64,000 nt of DNA, from contig CP073749.1 in assembly GCA_024398055.1 (NCBI GenBank), positions 4,712,594 through 4,776,593 of the forward strand, written 5' to 3'. Source of the stretch: a bacterium SCSIO 12741. GTDB taxonomy: Bacteria > Bacteroidota > Bacteroidia > Flavobacteriales_G > Salibacteraceae. Positions 17,209-24,840 of this stretch are shown piece after piece (within the stretch, counting starts at the first letter, position 1; the number at the start of each line of letters is the position of its first letter). Under the pieces are notes generated by a model, which saw only the letters and a program-made list of their open reading frames with translations, was not told where the DNA came from and did not search any database. The position numbers were made by a program, and so were the translations under genes.

Positions 17209-17282
17209 GGCGAGGTAGCTCAGTTGGTTAGAGCGTCGGATTCATAACCCGGAGGCCGAGAGTTCAAATCTCTCTCTCGCTA
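17209..17282 (+). tRNA. tRNA-Met (anticodon CAT)
   Basis: A full cloverleaf: acceptor GGCGAGG with TCTCGCT (G-U at both ends), D-stem GCTC/GAGC, anticodon stem TCGGA/CCCGG with loop TTCATAA (CAT at 17243-17245), T-stem GAGAG/CTCTC with loop TTCAAAT, and discriminator A. CCA is not encoded. It lacks the three G-C pairs and the 1-72 mismatch of an initiator, so it is an elongator tRNA-Met or the tRNA-Ile that is modified at CAT. A terminator follows directly. Its last five bases and that terminator form the left copy of a 48-bp direct repeat. Confidence 0.93.
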
Positions 17283-17325
17283 CAAAAGAAAGTCGATCTG
17301 GAAACGGGTCGACTTTTTTTATGCC
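17278..17325 (+). repeat. 48-bp direct repeat, left copy (candidate attL)
   Basis: Exactly identical to 19818-19865. It covers the last five bases of the tRNA and the whole tRNA terminator. The core has inverted-repeat symmetry (AAAGTCGA and TCGACTTT), like many tyrosine-recombinase crossover sites. Confidence 0.85.
17287..17320 (+). terminator. tRNA Rho-independent terminator
   Basis: Stem AAAGTCGA/TCGACTTT with a 12-base loop followed by a T run (17314-17320). It sits directly after the tRNA. Confidence 0.8.
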
Positions 17326-17393
17326 TTCTATCTCCCTTGAATTTCATTGGATTTTGTGTTAGGTTTGAGTAACCCTTATTCTAAACTGTTAGT

Positions 17394-18311
17394 ATGCGAT
17401 TCCTTTACCGTGTTCTGACCAGATTCGTTGTACCCTGGAAAAAGGCAGTCTCCGGAACTCTGGCCCTATCTCTTATCATGCTGATATTGACGGCTACTAA
17501 ATGTGGTAGTCCGCCTGAAATTGTAAAAGACAACAACTCTTTAATCACCTTCGGCGAAGCCTTGGTTGTGGTTGGGATGAAAGATACCCTGCGCGATTAT
17601 GCCGTGGTTCAAATTGGTCAACAAGCCAAAATATCCATAGAGCTACAAACCAACGGGAACAGTCATCACGGTAATAATTACCTCCGAATATTCTGCTATG
17701 AAAACGATAATCGGAACGGAGGGTTTTATTCTCAGGAATCTCAAAACATCGAATTGGACACCTTGGTTCGAATGGGTGCGCTAAAAGAGGATCAGACTTT
17801 AGACATTCCCTTTCAGTGGATGGGCTCAAAAAACTGTGATCGGTTAAAATTTCGCATTGAGGTATATCAAATTGAGGACACCAAAAAGAAGGCAGATTCC
17901 AAAGTTGTGATCGTGGATATTGAAGGTGACACTCCCCTTCCAACTTCCGTATTCAGCACTAATGTGGAGTACTGTGGACCGACTGAGGGACGAATTGCCA
18001 CTGGAATTCCTATCAAACTGATGATGCGATTTCAAAATGAGGAAAAAAGCCAAGGAAGCTTTCTCTATGTTGAATTGGTTCCACGTGACCAGATTAAGAT
18101 TCTTAGCAGAAATATGATTGCTCTACCCGATTTTAAACCCGGAGACTCAGCCCATATTACCGATCAATTTGAAATAATGCTCTTACCAAGTTCCGATAAG
18201 GAATACACCTACTCCCTAAAGATTATACACAGAATAACAGGGGAGTTGATTTCTGAAAAAGAATACACTATTAAACTTGGAGACGATCTCCACAAATGCA
18301 CCATTCCATGA
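17394..18311 (+). CDS. Unrecognised membrane-anchored beta-sandwich protein (cassette gene 1)
   Basis: A 305-residue protein. A basic N-terminus and one hydrophobic helix (about 20-36, SGTLALSLIMLILTATKC) are followed by two beta-rich regions (about 45-180 and 190-300). Cysteines lie in RIFCYEND, SKNCDRLKF and VEYCGPTEG. The C after the helix is preceded by TATK, a poor lipobox, so an uncleaved anchor or an atypical lipoprotein are both possible. The protein should sit on the periplasmic face. The first gene of a tight three-gene operon, its stop overlaps the start of gene 2 by four bases. No family was recognised. Confidence 0.65.
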   Translation: MRFLYRVLTRFVVPWKKAVSGTLALSLIMLILTATKCGSPPEIVKDNNSLITFGEALVVVGMKDTLRDYAVVQIGQQAKISIELQTNGNSHHGNNYLRIFCYENDNRNGGFYSQESQNIELDTLVRMGALKEDQTLDIPFQWMGSKNCDRLKFRIEVYQIEDTKKKADSKVVIVDIEGDTPLPTSVFSTNVEYCGPTEGRIATGIPIKLMMRFQNEEKSQGSFLYVELVPRDQIKILSRNMIALPDFKPGDSAHITDQFEIMLLPSSDKEYTYSLKIIHRITGELISEKEYTIKLGDDLHKCTIP

Positions 18312-18835
18312 AACGAAACTTCAAAATAATTCCAGCGATTGTCATTCCGATATTGATCGCTGTTATGGTTGGCTTCTTCTTCCTCATCCTAAGAAACCAA
18401 CAAAGTGTAAAAGGATGGGATGATGAGATTACGATGATTGATGATGAAATATTTGATCTGGAAGTGGAGCATGAAATGCTTCTCAATGTGGGTGTTGATC
18501 TGGATAAAAATGTCATTGTTCACCGAAATACACTGATTCAAAAAACTGAAAGAATCAGACAACTGAACATAGAGATAAAAAAACTCTTCGTTCAACTCAA
18601 ATCTGAAGAAGACAACACCCATAAAAAACAGAAGATTCTAAGAGATTTAAAACGCAAACTCAAACTGCTTGAAGCCGAATTGGATCAAGAATCGGAAAAG
18701 GTAAGGTTGGCATCGAAGGAGACCATTTTTCTTAAAGATCTCAAAGTGGACCTGAAGACCTTGCAGGAAAAAAAAGAACAATATCAGGAATTGAAGAAAA
18801 TCTATCAAGCCTATTTAAGGAAGTGTAATAATTAA
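18308..18835 (+). CDS. Membrane-anchored coiled-coil protein (cassette gene 2)
   Basis: A 175-residue protein starting at the ATG at 18308, chosen because it overlaps the upstream stop as ATGA; an upstream start adds only four residues. One transmembrane helix (about 8-28, IIPAIVIPILIAVMVGFFFL) is followed almost entirely by charged heptad-like sequence (about 35-170) rich in K, E and L, typical of a long parallel coiled coil such as LKRKLKLLEAELDQ. Topology, with helix first and rod outside the membrane, matches gene 3. It may form a heteromeric rod with gene 3. No enzymatic motif was seen. Confidence 0.65.
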   Translation: MKRNFKIIPAIVIPILIAVMVGFFFLILRNQQSVKGWDDEITMIDDEIFDLEVEHEMLLNVGVDLDKNVIVHRNTLIQKTERIRQLNIEIKKLFVQLKSEEDNTHKKQKILRDLKRKLKLLEAELDQESEKVRLASKETIFLKDLKVDLKTLQEKKEQYQELKKIYQAYLRKCNN

Positions 18836-18844
18836 GCAAAAAAG

Positions 18845-19717
18845 ATGGAATCGAAATCAAACAATAATACGCTGAGCATTGCCTTTGTCATCGTTTTGAT
18901 GCTGGTAATAGGCTTTGAAATAGCCTTATTTTTAATGCAAGAACAGTGGGCGTCATCCAGTCGTAGAGAGTTAACCAGCAACCGGATGAACCACTTAAAA
19001 ATCCTCGAGCGCATATCGGATATCAAGGCGGAGAATCGAACTACTCTTTCGTTAATTACCCATCAAGGAGAACTTATCGAAGAACGAAACTTGGAGATAG
19101 AAAAAGTTAAGGTTGAAATCTTCGTGCTGGAAGAGAAAATAAAAAAGGAAAGAGAAAATACGGCAGAGTACCAAAAGGATATTCTCAGACTCAAAAAGCT
19201 ATTGCACAGCCTGGATAGTAGCCGGCAAGCTGTCACCAATCGCTACCAACAATTGGTGAGTGAAGCGGAATCAAGTCCAGAGTACAGACAAGCTCAAACT
19301 ATAGATCGAGATATGGATGCCATGAAACGGGCTATAGATGAAGTGAAGGACAACAAATACGACTTCAAGTTGGAGCGCTACTCACCGCGAAACAAAAAAG
19401 GCGATGAAACCTATAATCCCCGTCGGGTGGACAAAATCATAGTATCGTATTATATCGAAGGCTGCATCACCACAAATGAGACCTTATATGCTCAACTTTT
19501 TGATCCTAATGGTCAAGCTATAGCCACCTCAGCTGAAGACCCTTTAGTATTGGACAATGGAGATGTTATGGCCTTGAAATTCGAAGTGGAAAAATCAGGT
19601 AGAGGACAATTCAGATTCACTGATTTACGATTGGTACAAAAAGGAACATATAGTGTCCAGGTTCGGAATTCAAAAGGAATAAGTAAAGGGAATATGATAG
19701 TCGAAATAGGTAAATAG
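18845..19717 (+). CDS. Membrane-anchored coiled-coil plus beta-sandwich protein (cassette gene 3)
   Basis: A 290-residue protein. One transmembrane helix (about 10-31, LSIAFVIVLMLVIGFEIALF) is followed by a coiled coil (about 45-165, with VKVEIFVLEEKIKKERE and ILRLKKLLHSLD) and a C-terminal beta-sandwich-like domain (about 190-290, with DKIIVSYYIEGC and KGTYSVQVRNSKG). It starts nine bases after gene 2 and ends about 100 bases before the right 48-bp repeat, whose hairpin would serve as the operon terminator. The parallel architecture of genes 2 and 3 suggests they assemble together, perhaps with the beta-domains of genes 1 and 3 as the exposed part. This is inference; the family is not recognised. 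Confidence 0.65.
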   Translation: MESKSNNNTLSIAFVIVLMLVIGFEIALFLMQEQWASSSRRELTSNRMNHLKILERISDIKAENRTTLSLITHQGELIEERNLEIEKVKVEIFVLEEKIKKERENTAEYQKDILRLKKLLHSLDSSRQAVTNRYQQLVSEAESSPEYRQAQTIDRDMDAMKRAIDEVKDNKYDFKLERYSPRNKKGDETYNPRRVDKIIVSYYIEGCITTNETLYAQLFDPNGQAIATSAEDPLVLDNGDVMALKFEVEKSGRGQFRFTDLRLVQKGTYSVQVRNSKGISKGNMIVEIGK

Positions 19718-19817
19718 AACCAGTCTACTTTCCTCTAATCCTGAATACCCTCTTCCCTTTTCAGAGATTCAGGGAGTTTTCAAAATGTTCAAATCTGAAC
19801 TCCTATTAAAACTTTTC

Positions 19818-19865
19818 CGCTACAAAAGAAAGTCGATCTGGAAACGGGTCGACTTTTTTTATGCC
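19818..19865 (+). repeat. 48-bp direct repeat, right copy (candidate attR)
   Basis: Identical to 17278-17325. It contains the same terminator hairpin (19827-19860), here placed to end transcription of the three-gene cassette. Identity stops sharply on both sides. Confidence 0.85.
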
Positions 19866-19996
19866 GCCAAAAGCAGCCGCAAATTCATTCGTCTTAGGCT
19901 ATAGCTTTTATGGAAATGGCTCATTGTCATGGGCAACTCAATTCGAAATACCTCGTCAGTATAGTAGTAACCGTAAGAACTAAGACGCCCTATTTT

Positions 19997-21298
19997 ATGA
20001 AACCACAATCCATTCTAATTCTCCTCTCCTCCTTTTTTGCCACCCTACTACAAGCTCAAAAAGCAGATACCAGCTACTTCATGAATCTAAACCCAACATC
20101 GGGGAATTTGGACACCATTGAAATGACCATTACTGAATTGGACAACCATTGCCAGGTACTCTCCAAAACCGAGTTAAGTCATCGATTGAATGGTCAGGTG
20201 GTTAAAGATTGGGTTTATGATTCCAAAATCGTTTTCACCTATGACCAAAATGATTCTCTGATTGGCACCTTCCATTATGACTACTTAGATAAAATGGATG
20301 CCAACAGCACAAATCCCACCTGGGAGTTTATTCTCGATAGGGACAATCAGGGGCGAATAATAAGGCGGAGCACTTTTTCCTTACAAGGTAGCCGCAAAGA
20401 AATCAGTAAAATCGAATACCAATTTACCGGCAAGCATCTTACCCAAAAAAGCTATTTCAACGGATCAGGATCCCTTCTAAGAAAGACTGAAGATGTCAGT
20501 TTCACATTTCAACAGGATCAAAAAATAGAGCGCAACCGGATTGTTTATGATTCAACTGGTATGAAGGTTTGGGAAACTCGCCAAGAATATAAATGGGCTG
20601 GCCAGTTGCTGGACAGCGTACTTTATTACAGCCCAAATAGCCAGACTCAAAAACTGGAACTAAAGGCCATGAACCTTTATGATTACCTTCCTGATAGTTC
20701 TCAGATTTTCGAATATGCTGTGAATGTGGATGCCCATTTTTCGATCGTTGACACCTCTTCAATTACGGAAATGAGGTATCACAATGGCTCCTTGCTTTAT
20801 GAGCGGATTTCCAGTAAAAATCAGGGTGGTTGGAAAATTGACGAAACCCAAAATCACTATTCTCAGCAAAGGCTGGATTCAAGTGTTTCTCAGATCGATG
20901 AAAACTTCGGCGGCGTCACCCAAAAAAGATTGATCCGTAACCATTATACCTACGATTTCGACCAACTGGTTAAAACTGAGCGAATCGGATTTCTTAATGG
21001 TCAACTTAGTTCCCATAGTCAGACCGAATTTTCAGTTTGCATGATCGTTCAATCTACTACCGATGCTTCCAAGGCAACCAGCGGAATCCGTGTATACCCC
21101 AATCCATTTGAAAATGATTTAAATGTGTCCGTTCAATCAGCCACTTCGTTTAAACTATTGGATTTCACCGGTAAAGAAGTTTTAAGTGGTCATTTAGGGC
21201 CAGAGAACACGCACCTTTCTATTGACGACATTCCTTCTGGCGTATACTTTCTTCAGCTCATGGAACTCGGTGAAGCGATCAGGCTGATACGCCAATAG
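19997..21298 (+). CDS. YD-repeat-like protein with T9SS type A sorting domain
   Basis: A 433-residue secreted protein starting at the ATG at 19997 (MKPQSILILLSSFF), directly before its signal peptide; the longer frame has 29 residues unlike a signal. The body (about 60-350) has repeated Y-D-x-x-G/N-x-L-x-x-x-x-x-Y strands, such as FTYDQNDSLIGTFHYDY and IVYDSTGMKVWE, reminiscent of RHS/YD-type antiparallel repeats. The C-terminal 70 residues are a type A sorting domain (RVYPNPFENDLNV, IPSGVYFLQL). It should be surface-attached or released by the T9SS. It lies immediately outside the right repeat of the cassette and ends four bases from the convergent GT39 gene. Confidence 0.8.
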   Translation: MKPQSILILLSSFFATLLQAQKADTSYFMNLNPTSGNLDTIEMTITELDNHCQVLSKTELSHRLNGQVVKDWVYDSKIVFTYDQNDSLIGTFHYDYLDKMDANSTNPTWEFILDRDNQGRIIRRSTFSLQGSRKEISKIEYQFTGKHLTQKSYFNGSGSLLRKTEDVSFTFQQDQKIERNRIVYDSTGMKVWETRQEYKWAGQLLDSVLYYSPNSQTQKLELKAMNLYDYLPDSSQIFEYAVNVDAHFSIVDTSSITEMRYHNGSLLYERISSKNQGGWKIDETQNHYSQQRLDSSVSQIDENFGGVTQKRLIRNHYTYDFDQLVKTERIGFLNGQLSSHSQTEFSVCMIVQSTTDASKATSGIRVYPNPFENDLNVSVQSATSFKLLDFTGKEVLSGHLGPENTHLSIDDIPSGVYFLQLMELGEAIRLIRQ

Positions 21299-21302
21299 AG
21301 GA

Positions 21303-22748
21303 TCAGGATTCTACTTTTTCTTTGACTCTATACACCTCGATCCGATCCAGCTCTTCCTTAGAAAAGGTCCATGGAGCTTTCCAGAAGTAAGAATTGTAGA
21401 ATCGGGCAAAACCGTGAGTCGCGTAGAAGGTAGCCCAAGTGGGTTTACGACTTACATCAAACTGCCATTCAAGTTGGTTTCGTAAAGAATCGGGTACATA
21501 TTGACCAGCCACATCTTTGGGAATGACAAAGTATTCACCGGGCTTTACCTCACTTAGGTTGGTTTCATAGAACTGCATCCCCTCTTGAGTCGCATACCAT
21601 TGCCAGCCCCAATGTCCTACAGTCCAAGTAGTGGAATTTTGGGGAATTTTTTGACTGACTTCTGGAGCGGTTTGCCGGTAAAAATTGGCGTAGTGCCAAT
21701 CTGAAATGGAAAGCAGTAGGCCAAGAATGAGCGTGAGAGTGAGAGTAAGGTTTCGCTCTGTTTTTGTGGTTTTGTTTAGAAAGGGAGCTGCTAAGAGCAA
21801 CAGAGGCGGCAAGATCAACAAAACGTGTCTGGTAGCCATAAAGGGTGCCAAGGGCACCATGAAAATAATCATACACCACGCCCAAGCAAATAGAATGACT
21901 CTTTGGTGGAAGCTTTCGGGCAGAAGGCCAGAGCGAAATCTCACAAAGGGCCACATGGCTAAACCCACCATAATCAGTCCCATAAAGGTGAACAAGCGCC
22001 TCATCCACAATTCTCCATCGACTCCAATTCCGTAAATCCAGGCGACGATAGGAAGACCAACCATTAGGGCCAGGGCCACTATCCAGAATGCAAGTTTTAG
22101 CACTTTTTTCCCGGAAAAGAATCCGGAAACAAAGACCAAAACGAAGGGTGAAATAGCTCCCAGAATGATCAAAAAGGCTTGAAATTCGCGAACCACCCAC
22201 TCCATCGTAGTTGGCTCATAGACAGGATTATTCAAATGAATTCCACCAAAATCCCACCAATTAAAGGCTGAATACAATCCGAGAATAGCTGCCGGGATGA
22301 ATAAGGTCCAAAGCAAGATAAAGCGTCGCTGTACCAATATGGATAAACCAATTAGCCCAATCATGGGCAAGGAGGAGTACTTGATGAGCATGCTCAATCC
22401 AAAGAAAGTAGCCGCCAAAGCGTAGCGCTTCCAATTGAACTCACCCGGTTTGAGCAGGACATACATCATAGCCAACTGTAGGCTGAGCAAGGGAATATCG
22501 AGCATTAGATTTTGGTTGACCAGAAAGGCCGGCGAGAGGGTGAACAGAGCCGTTAAAAGCAAAGCCCTATTCGCAGCAAACAGCTGAGCCAACAGGTAAA
22601 ACAGGAAAATATCCAAAAAGGTAAATAGCGCCTGAAAGAGATGCATAGAAACCTCACCATAGCCGAACAATTTCCCCATAAAAGCTATCCCGTAATAATG
22701 CAATGGGGGTTGTTCTCTACGTAGATGGGCCTTGCGGTATTTTCCCAA
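21303..22748 (-). CDS. Glycosyltransferase family 39-like membrane protein, main fragment of a frameshifted gene
   Basis: This 481-residue frame holds most of a polytopic GT39-like glycosyltransferase. After a few out-of-frame residues it continues with QPPLHYYGIAFMGKLFGYGE, the segment that in this family follows the acidic first loop. About ten hydrophobic helices and a soluble C-terminal periplasmic domain follow. The true N-terminus is encoded in another frame at 22685-22912. The two join if the run of five G at 22705-22709 (plus strand) had six, which restores ENNPPLHYY and a protein of about 536 residues. It is either an assembly error or a broken gene. The sugar and acceptor are unknown. 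Confidence 0.75.
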   Translation of the reverse strand: MGKYRKAHLRREQPPLHYYGIAFMGKLFGYGEVSMHLFQALFTFLDIFLFYLLAQLFAANRALLLTALFTLSPAFLVNQNLMLDIPLLSLQLAMMYVLLKPGEFNWKRYALAATFFGLSMLIKYSSLPMIGLIGLSILVQRRFILLWTLFIPAAILGLYSAFNWWDFGGIHLNNPVYEPTTMEWVVREFQAFLIILGAISPFVLVFVSGFFSGKKVLKLAFWIVALALMVGLPIVAWIYGIGVDGELWMRRLFTFMGLIMVGLAMWPFVRFRSGLLPESFHQRVILFAWAWCMIIFMVPLAPFMATRHVLLILPPLLLLAAPFLNKTTKTERNLTLTLTLILGLLLSISDWHYANFYRQTAPEVSQKIPQNSTTWTVGHWGWQWYATQEGMQFYETNLSEVKPGEYFVIPKDVAGQYVPDSLRNQLEWQFDVSRKPTWATFYATHGFARFYNSYFWKAPWTFSKEELDRIEVYRVKEKVES

Positions 22749-22912
22749 TTTACCACCGCCGAAAAAGGATGCAAAGGATTATGCTCGATCCACTGAGCGG
22801 CCTCCAAATAGAAGGTATCGTCAATATGAAAAGCCTTATTCACGTTGATCAGAGTGGCCAGTATGCCGATAAGCAACAGGAAGATCAGGTCTTTTCTTGG
22901 GATTGTATTCAT
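22685..22912 (-). CDS. N-terminal fragment of the frameshifted GT39-like gene
   Basis: A 75-residue frame starting MNTIPRKDLIFLLLIGILA, a first transmembrane helix, followed by the GT39 acidic loop HIDDTFYLEAAQWIEHNP that the downstream frame lacks. Reading leaves the correct frame after ENNP, at the run of five G (22705-22709), and stops soon after. The fit of both pieces into one family architecture is strong evidence that this is one gene. Confidence 0.75.
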   Translation of the reverse strand: MNTIPRKDLIFLLLIGILATLINVNKAFHIDDTFYLEAAQWIEHNPLHPFSAVVNWENTARPIYVENNPHCIITG

Positions 22913-22966
22913 GGTGCGGTTGGCAAATGTACGTGGACGGGTTTAATTTTCAATGATGAAAGTATT

Positions 22967-22992
22967 CAGGTACGCGTTTAAACGCGCACCTG
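22967..22992. repeat. 26-bp near-palindrome, left copy
   Basis: CGCGTTTAAACGCG at the core with CAGGT/ACCTG arms. It is the exact reverse complement of 23169-23194; the two differ only at one swapped base pair. It flanks a duplicated gene tail. Confidence 0.7.
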
Positions 22993-23011
22993 AGCACTTC
23001 GTCCCCTGGCA

Positions 23012-23094
23012 GGATCCTGCCTTAGCAACTCCACCAATCCTCGATAAACCCTCGGAAAGCGTTCCTCGAATTCAACGGGTTGCTCAAAGAATAC
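23012..23094 (-). pseudogene. Duplicated 3' fragment of the MtfA-like peptidase gene
   Basis: 83 bases matching 23214-23296 with one difference (23068 against 23270), in the same orientation. The second copy is the coding end of the peptidase gene, so this one is a detached, non-functional tail fragment. Both copies lie beside a 26-bp near-palindrome, so duplication of a palindrome-plus-tail unit is likely. Confidence 0.75.
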
Positions 23095-23108
23095 TCCGAA
23101 AGCCAGAG

Positions 23109-23160
23109 TCGCGGATTTCAAATCCGCAGCTCTCCACATCCGGATTGCAAATCCGGATGA
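23109..23160. repeat. Two short palindromes between the duplicated segments
   Basis: GCGGATTTCAAATCCGC at 23111-23127 and CCGGATTGCAAATCCGG around 23140-23156. They are compact REP-like hairpins of similar design (GGATT..AATCC). Confidence 0.65.
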
Positions 23161-23168
23161 GTGAACCT

Positions 23169-23194
23169 CAGGTGCGCGTTTAAACGCGTACCTG
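23169..23194. repeat. 26-bp near-palindrome, right copy
   Basis: The reverse complement of 22967-22992. It lies inside the end of the peptidase gene, supplying its last residues (TQVRV) and its TAA stop. Confidence 0.7.
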
Positions 23195-24058
23195 AGTATT
23201 CTGTCCCTTCGCTGGATCCTGCCTTAGCAACTCCACCAATCCTCGATAAACCCTCGGAAAGCGTTCCTCAAATTCAACGGGTTGCTCAAAGAATACCTCT
23301 ACCGCTGTGGCAAACCGCTCATGGGCATCCTTGAGCATGTTTTTTCGAAAAAACTCCTGGTCTTCTTTGGAGGCTTGCTGTATCCATTCAGCAGAGTTGG
23401 CGAGCCATACGTTGAGATCATCGACCCAATCGTAATCGCTGGGCATACTGAAGTGCCCCTGAATTTTAAGGGCATGGGCCAACTCGTGAATGGCCAGATT
23501 TACTCCATCATCTTTGACTCGAAAACCATGCTTAACGTGTTTCCATGAAAAATAGACCAGTCCACCAGAAATGGTACCTCCCTTGAGATAGGGCTTGCCC
23601 TTAAGCAGCTGAAAAATATCGGGATAGAGCACATAGGTATGAAACCGAGGTAACTCATAATCCTCCAAACCAAAAGTCAATTGAGCGGCGGCCGCTGAAA
23701 TAACCACTTTCATTTCCCGGGTAAGTTTAAGCCCTTCTTTGGCGAAATAGCGCTTTTCGCTGTAGTGATACATCATTCGGCGCTGAAACTTAATTTGATT
23801 GCGGGGAGACAGGTTTTGATAAAACGTGTTGTATCGCTTCAAAACCACTTCCATCACACCTCGGTCCAAATTACTCATGGCCTTTCTTCGCTTGATCACT
23901 TCACCTTCTCCGGTTATGGTGAAATACAAAGCATCAGCCAAATCATCGTACCAGGCGCTACGTTTGTTTTTTCCTTGAGAATCTCTCGAAAACTTAATCA
24001 GAAAGACAGCCCCTTGAACAAGTATGATAAAAAGGATAAAATGAATCTCCGCGGTCAT
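23180..24058 (-). CDS. MtfA-like (M90 family) zinc peptidase
   Basis: A 292-residue protein from the ATG at 24058 (MTAEIHFILFIILVQGAVFL), which gives an N-terminal transmembrane helix; a TTG 24 bases upstream is an alternative. The peptidase domain (about 70-285) has the zinc motif HELAH at 191-195 in NLAIHELAHALK, preceded by a GGLVYFSW strand, as in the MtfA/DUF980 family. E. coli MtfA acts on the regulator Mlc; the target here is unknown. The final residues and the stop codon lie in a 26-bp near-palindrome, so the natural C-terminus may have been replaced by repeat insertion. Confidence 0.8.
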   Translation of the reverse strand: MTAEIHFILFIILVQGAVFLIKFSRDSQGKNKRSAWYDDLADALYFTITGEGEVIKRRKAMSNLDRGVMEVVLKRYNTFYQNLSPRNQIKFQRRMMYHYSEKRYFAKEGLKLTREMKVVISAAAAQLTFGLEDYELPRFHTYVLYPDIFQLLKGKPYLKGGTISGGLVYFSWKHVKHGFRVKDDGVNLAIHELAHALKIQGHFSMPSDYDWVDDLNVWLANSAEWIQQASKEDQEFFRKNMLKDAHERFATAVEVFFEQPVEFEERFPRVYRGLVELLRQDPAKGQNTQVRV

Positions 24059-24152
24059 GATGTTGGTACAGTAGTTGAGCAATGATAGGATTTTTTAGCA
24101 AAAGACCTCAACTATGACCCTACCCGTCAGAAGTCGAAAGCTTGAAATAACT

Positions 24153-24160
24153 TAATTTCG
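24153..24160 (+). promoter_or_regulatory. Candidate -7 element (TAATTTCG)
   Basis: TAnnTTnG match 12 bases before the PAP2 gene. The same octamer occurs before the genes starting at 47711 and 55802. Confidence 0.4.
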
Positions 24161-24171
24161 CGGTTCTGAAA

Positions 24172-24840
24172 ATGATGCTGATCAAAACGCTCAAATCCCA
24201 CTCTGGATTCATTTATCCCTACCTGGCCTACTTAGTGGTTGGCGGGATCTTTTTGCTCAATGTAAACCGGGCAGAATCCCATGAGATTCTAAACCAGTTT
24301 TTTTGGGCTCCACTCCACCCATTTTTCGCCTACATCACCCATTTGGGAGATGGGTTAACCTTGGCCATTGTAGCAGCTATCCTACTGATGCTAAACTTTC
24401 GAGCCACCATTTTCATGGCCTTGTCAGGGATGCTGGCTGGAGGAATTACCCAGTTTTTAAAACACCAGTTTTTCGACGACGTCGTTCGCCCCGTATTCTA
24501 CTTTAACCATTTCCACCCAGGTGAATTTATGCCGCAAGTGGTTCCCGGAGTGCAGACCTTAATTCACAACAGTTTTCCATCGGGCCATTCTACGGCATCG
24601 TTTGCTATGTTTTGCACCTTAGCCATGATTACCCGACGTCCTTCTTTTCGAGTAATCTTCTTTTTTGCCGCTCTGATCATTGCCTATTCTCGAGTATATT
24701 TATCACAACACTTTTTTGTGGATACCTATGTGGGTTCATTCATTGGGATATCAGGTACTTTGATCATTTATCACCTGCTCCAATGGTTGGAAAACCGTTA
24801 CTCCATTCAATGGTGGTACAAATCCCTAATTAACCGGTGA
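24172..24840 (+). CDS. PAP2 family membrane phosphatase
   Basis: A 222-residue integral membrane protein with about five or six helices and all three phosphatase motifs: K97...RP at 106-107, PSGH at 136-139 with the catalytic histidine, and SR at 173-174 with H180 and D184. Family members remove phosphate from lipid pyrophosphates or phosphatidic acid; some recycle undecaprenyl pyrophosphate. It overlaps the next gene, a GT39 enzyme, by four bases (GTGA), so a role in polyprenyl carrier metabolism linked to sugar transfer is likely. A lipid A 1-phosphatase role is a possible alternative. Confidence 0.88.
   Translation: MMLIKTLKSHSGFIYPYLAYLVVGGIFLLNVNRAESHEILNQFFWAPLHPFFAYITHLGDGLTLAIVAAILLMLNFRATIFMALSGMLAGGITQFLKHQFFDDVVRPVFYFNHFHPGEFMPQVVPGVQTLIHNSFPSGHSTASFAMFCTLAMITRRPSFRVIFFFAALIIAYSRVYLSQHFFVDTYVGSFIGISGTLIIYHLLQWLENRYSIQWWYKSLINR

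Follow-up and report, generated by a model that had tools for sequence, protein, structure and literature searches.

How could three genes have entered a chromosome at the end of a tRNA gene when no recombinase accompanies them? The question is raised by a 2.54-kb segment within the 64-kb stretch of DNA analyzed here (the window), which belongs to a genome assembled as a single contig of 5.1 Mb (G000). The insertion target, an intact tRNA-Met (CAU), occupies 17209..17282 (+), and both ARAGORN and Infernal placed its 3' end at 17282/17283. It is apparently the sole elongator tRNA-Met of the genome; the two further CAU tRNAs were assigned by inspection as the initiator and an Ile2-like tRNA. As an earlier note on this DNA had reported, an exact 48-bp block at 17278..17325 (+), comprising the final 5 nt of the mature tRNA followed by the terminator hairpin, is repeated at 19818..19865 (+), and only three genes, all on the same strand, are enclosed. 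The repeat is the second-longest exact direct repeat in the window, and no other full copy exists in the genome. The hairpin is strong (RNA fold -21.5 kcal/mol, z -6.2), and its right-hand copy also serves to terminate the cargo operon.

The right copy has no tRNA body next to it, as the earlier note had stated, but neither is it a bare repeat. A T-loop segment of the tRNA, GTTCAAATCT (17262..17271, +), was found again at 19787..19796 (+), ahead of the right copy, so the duplication exceeds 48 bp. Within the window this 10-mer occurs only at these two positions, and 640 kb of G000 contained one further occurrence. The distance from GTTCRA to the end of the tail was 31 nt in the right copy compared to 16 nt in the real tRNA-Met, a difference of +15. 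The T-loop copy and the longer distance together indicate that a displaced 3' end of the tRNA lies on the right, with an interruption following its T-loop. The 15-nt interruption itself forms only a weak hairpin and no perfect palindrome (z -1.4).

The enclosed genes form an apparent operon, in which an ATGA overlap joins genes 1 and 2 and a gap of 9 nt separates gene 3 from gene 2. A candidate promoter, TTG-20 nt-TAGGTTTG (17337..17367, +), matches what we take to be the Bacteroidota consensus, and TAnnTTTG occurs once within the cassette, at 17360. Gene 1 (17394..18311, +) encodes an orphan protein of 305 aa with an N-terminal hydrophobic segment, probably beta-rich. Gene 2 (18308..18835, +), its start set by the ATGA overlap, encodes about 175 aa with one N-terminal transmembrane (TM) segment and a coiled coil; it showed no relative in viral contigs. 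Gene 3 (18845..19717, +) encodes 290 aa with a TM segment, a long coiled coil and a C-terminal beta domain. The homologue search proposed in the earlier note succeeded for gene 3. Its family is almost universal in Bacteroidia, with members in 311 of 345 genomes, and gene 3 represents a second, diverged copy of it. For gene 1 no relative turned up in these 345 genomes of the class, in Pfam, NCBIfam or PDB, or among plasmids and viral contigs. The housekeeping copy of the gene 3 family in G000 (G000:2141889-2142782) adjoins comF. The near-universal TM-coiled-coil-beta protein (L071:6884-7819) is divergent from comF and had no NCBIfam model above cut-off, and some genomes hold two nearby copies of the family (L072). 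Searches of Pfam, NCBIfam, PADLOC, PDB and plasmids returned nothing usable on cargo function, with a marginal coiled-coil match as the only PADLOC result bearing on the defense or envelope system suggested in the earlier note, and AF2 models of the cargo proteins were too poor in quality for use. Our guess is that the products might form an envelope-spanning complex. None of the three genes matched a recombinase or a nuclease, in agreement with the earlier claim that the cassette holds no recombinase.

To place the insertion, we compared the tRNA-Met site across the family. A tRNA resembling that of the window was present in 29 of 35 family genomes, G000 included. In five relatives (G002, G010, G017, G022 and G025) the tRNA-Met was 99-100% identical, and the PAP2 and glycosyltransferase genes that lie at 24172 and 24837 in the window were conserved beside it. 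All five showed a single tail, with neither a second tail copy nor a cassette after tRNA-Met, which supports the proposed insertion at the tRNA 3' end. The junction comparison thus yielded single-copy sites on the tRNA side in five genomes, but the right flank of the cassette had no syntenic counterpart in the relatives examined, so the empty site is demonstrated on the tRNA side only. In the relatives tRNA-Met adjoins the PAP2 gene in divergent orientation, while in the window (17209-24840) the two lie 7 kb apart, an arrangement that an inversion in G000, from about 17.2 to 24.1 kb of the window, could explain. Other relatives carried different units: the orthologous tRNA-Met of G029 and G034 bore a version with a GIY-YIG gene and a duplicated tail and terminator, in G008 a GIY-YIG gene was found 134 nt downstream of tRNA-Met, and in G030 a small interrupted unit was present. 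The states seen in the relatives and in G000 indicate that this site can stand empty, hold a nuclease gene or hold cargo.

The same anatomy was seen at other tRNAs. We scanned the 20 kb 3' of every tRNA for copies of that tRNA's own tail junction, in G000 and in two other genera of the same family (G001 and G003). Own tail-plus-terminator junctions gave 8 hits for 40 tRNAs in G000 compared to 4 in 1560 mismatched pairs, 11 hits for 42 tRNAs in G001 compared to 12 in 1722, and 4 hits for 30 tRNAs in G003 compared to 3 in 870. Seven cargo cassettes were comparable: the window cassette at Met, two at Lys and one at Leu in G000, those at Ala and Leu in G001, and one at Lys in G003. Every one of the seven, across four tRNA types and three genomes, ended in T-loop, insertion, tail and terminator, and GTTCRA stood just ahead of the displaced tail in each (background 2.5% per 45 nt). 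The extra bases numbered exactly 5 in the six cassettes at Lys, Leu and Ala tRNAs and 15 in the window; for the Ala and Leu cassettes of G001, whose extracted copies were one base short, the +5 value was corrected by hand. A strict +5 scan with exact 6-nt tails recovered just two of the six, since acceptor ends diverge, and the others were read from their tail-plus-terminator copies. Because such an anatomy occurs at other G000 tRNAs too, a chance origin of the repeats is excluded.

These cassettes varied in content. The tRNA-Lys array of G000 includes two gene cassettes, of 2.15 kb (one 560-aa protein) and about 2.8 kb (three main genes), which carry different cargo and end on the right in one and the same 28-nt sequence, absent from the rest of the genome; a search of viral contigs for this motif found nothing. 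Gene-less tail-plus-terminator units accompany the two cassettes in the array (L110:14500-19800). At one G000 tRNA-Leu (L116) a 1.4-kb cassette encodes a 198-aa membrane protein, and a second tRNA-Leu (L103) is followed by tandem 131-bp tail-plus-terminator units. On inspection, both G001 cassettes and the one in G003 carry unrelated cargo. No integrase gene was present in any cassette inspected. The earlier note had proposed the terminator hairpin as the crossover site. We dropped this proposal: terminators differ between tRNAs, and the signature that recurs in the sister cassettes is T-loop, insertion and tail. The terminator seems to have been copied along with the tail rather than to have acted as a crossover. 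As a separate observation, REP-like motifs such as GAGTGTGAGAAGCGAGAACGAG are common just behind G000 tRNAs (L086, L089, L090, L100, L107 and L116), often in a hairpin that may be a terminator.

GIY-YIG genes were found at sites of the same kind. Units of the tRNA-Asp arrays in G001 consist of tail, terminator, an 85-aa GIY-YIG protein and a palindrome-bearing tRNA 3' half, and in one unit a truncated GIY-YIG is followed by two cargo genes. G000 has two stand-alone GIY-YIG genes, one of them at L102:482-724, directly downstream of a tRNA-Leu and of the Ile2-like CAU tRNA; its remaining two PF01541 matches lie inside proteins of >470 aa. Neither stand-alone gene adjoins tRNA-Met. The tRNA-Leu unit ends in a tRNA-Leu 3' half that is broken after GGGTTC by a 29-nt hairpin. 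We used the nuclease of this unit as the single query in an unselected scan of GTDB contigs, which returned 51 GIY-YIG loci in Bacteroidota, Patescibacteria groups, Omnitrophota and others. A tRNA or tmRNA stood beside 39 of the 51 on the same strand and beside none on the opposite strand. At 26 of these 39 loci a displaced fragment of the neighboring tRNA of at least 16 nt was detected, compared to 1 of 1304 mismatched control pairs. Such fragments were often interrupted by a palindrome, as in the tRNA-Phe fragment of L204, which reads GTTC, then CCTGCCTGCCGGCAGGCAGG, then GATCC.

A mirrored type was also seen (L190, L205 and L211), with the nuclease upstream of the tRNA and a D-loop interruption in the 5' half. 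Elements with GIY-YIG upstream of the tRNA were noted at L190-L195, L198, L200, L205-L211, L216 and L225, and in most of them the displaced 5' half is interrupted by a palindrome in the D-loop or nearby. In Marinimicrobia and Peregrinibacteria, GIY-YIG genes lie 123 and 169 nt downstream of tmRNA (L212 and L219). Within the window's own family, 19 of 28 loci inspected had a tRNA-adjacent GIY-YIG gene. The open-access literature that we searched contained no description of chromosomal tRNA-linked GIY-YIG cassettes.

With a probability that we put at about 0.6, the window segment belongs, as a member with cargo but no nuclease, to a family of cassettes that split and regenerate tRNA genes and that, in their autonomous versions, carry one stand-alone GIY-YIG endonuclease gene of about 80 aa. 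Like other members, it has an intact tRNA on one side and a displaced copy of the tRNA end on the other, and the displaced fragment is interrupted at a tRNA loop. It differs in the interruption, which measures 15 bases in the window compared to 5 in the six other cargo versions and takes the form of a palindrome where a GIY-YIG gene is carried, and in having no internal GIY-YIG gene. The possibility of a decayed GIY-YIG gene inside the cassette was considered and rejected, as neither a gene nor a recognizable remnant was found; the window cassette can therefore be at most a non-autonomous member.

In the proposed mechanism, a GIY-YIG nuclease would cut a loop of an intact tRNA gene, here the T-loop, and recombinational repair would set new DNA into the break, duplicating the tail and terminator. 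On one side the tRNA would be rebuilt, complete with its own tail and terminator, and the fragment displaced to the far side would be interrupted by extra bases and followed by the second terminator copy. This interrupted copy may resist re-cutting; the palindrome could serve as that block or be a repeat element in its own right. Terminators vary from one species to another, so the identity of the two window copies suggests a local duplication. For the window cassette itself, a nuclease of this kind, encoded in this genome or in an earlier one, may have acted in trans, and we rate the movement in trans raised in the earlier note as probable.

The main rival is an integrase origin, in which a tyrosine recombinase inserted an ordinary integrative element into the 3' end of tRNA-Met, using the 48-bp block as att core, and the integrase was later lost or acted in trans, leaving a decayed or cis-mobilizable remnant. 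Such elements are classically recognized by direct repeats at the 3' end of a tRNA, and the window cassette bears these. G000 also holds one such island, a conventional 18-kb element at tRNA-Arg (G000:C1 about 4631000-4649500; L115, L119) with a 17-bp repeat at +18.2 kb and a 516-aa integrase near its far end, and the three PF00589 proteins of the genome look like XerC, XerD and this integrase. However, the tRNA-Arg repeat looks different from the 48-bp repeat, and the sole element integrase of the genome sits at that island; no integrase lies inside the window cassette and no cognate one with the same att was found elsewhere. Where a classical island leaves a contiguous displaced 3' end, the window and its six sister cassettes have extra bases between T-loop and tail, and GIY-YIG units, rather than integrases, occupy the same kind of site. 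We therefore regard an integrase origin as unlikely.

Two further explanations were considered. Without any dedicated enzyme, RecA could have integrated a circle that carried the same tail and terminator, or amplified a tandem duplication, or duplicated tRNA ends could have decayed in place. The perfect 48-bp identity is usable as homology, and the 131-bp units at tRNA-Leu (L103) resemble plain tandem duplication. This route leaves unexplained why different tRNAs and genomes show a constant +5 nt, why displaced fragments contain palindromes and why nuclease genes stand at these sites, and it appears less probable still than an integrase. That the terminator was duplicated alone, beside three genes that were always present, is in keeping with the short, hairpin-rich nature of terminators. 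It is nearly refuted: the right copy also holds the tRNA tail and T-loop, no relative of gene 1 occurs in the 345 genomes of the class, and the cassette is missing from tRNA-Met in the relatives examined. We consider it very improbable.

Elements without an integrase are established among integrative elements, where they are termed cis-mobilizable elements (CIMEs). As described for the Islander integrase-type islands, the tRNA is restored, a displaced fragment marks the far end and cargo lies between (PMC4383910). The window cassette shares these features but differs from that description in having no integrase, a repeat that runs through the terminator and a fragment interrupted after the T-loop. 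SegB of T4/T6 is described as a free-standing phage GIY-YIG homing endonuclease located among tRNA genes, and nucleases of this type are reported to cleave tRNA-containing DNA; they drive recombinational amplification and are able to work in trans (PMC2988022, PMC13096335). The cassettes here likewise pair a stand-alone GIY-YIG gene with tRNA genes, but are chromosomal rather than phage-borne, and the SegB accounts consulted in these two sources describe neither cargo cassettes nor a tRNA that is regenerated while a displaced fragment of it is left interrupted by a palindrome. In the trans, or collaborative, homing outlined in one of them, the free-standing MobE mobilizes the defunct I-TevIII intron (PMC2988022). 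There, too, an element without a working nuclease is moved by a nuclease encoded elsewhere, as may hold for the window cassette, but the passenger is an intron rather than protein genes at a split tRNA.

Integron cassettes offer another likeness, being small, with one to three orphan genes, and forming arrays bounded by hairpin sites, comparable to the two-cassette tRNA-Lys array. In contrast, no IntI is found among the three PF00589 proteins of G000, and the boundaries here are tRNA pieces and terminators. The broader proposal, that stand-alone GIY-YIG nucleases constitute a widespread class of bacterial mobile element which splits and regenerates tRNA and tmRNA genes and leaves a displaced fragment proof against re-cutting, and that nuclease-less cassettes transport ordinary genes by this route in a recombinase-independent, integron-like system, seems to us evenly balanced between right and wrong. 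Recurrence at tRNA genes of G000 and its relatives suggests a little-known, recombinase-free spread of genes via bacterial tRNA genes. tRNA genes are classical integration sites of islands, usually ascribed to integrases. If true, a nuclease-driven route that rebuilds the tRNA would account for integrase-less cassettes and scattered tRNA fragments, would assign a role to the numerous small GIY-YIG proteins that Bacteroidota and candidate phyla encode, and would provide compact natural systems for placing genes at tRNA loci.

A duplicated gene end was also noted away from the cassette. At 22966-23300 of the window, an MtfA-like gene has a second copy of its 3' end (exact over 56 + 26 bp, spacing 202). 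Palindromes around GCGTTTAAACGC (TCAGGT..ACCTGA) lie at the edges on both sides, with REP-like palindromes between them, perhaps representing a palindrome-associated 3'-end duplication at a protein gene.
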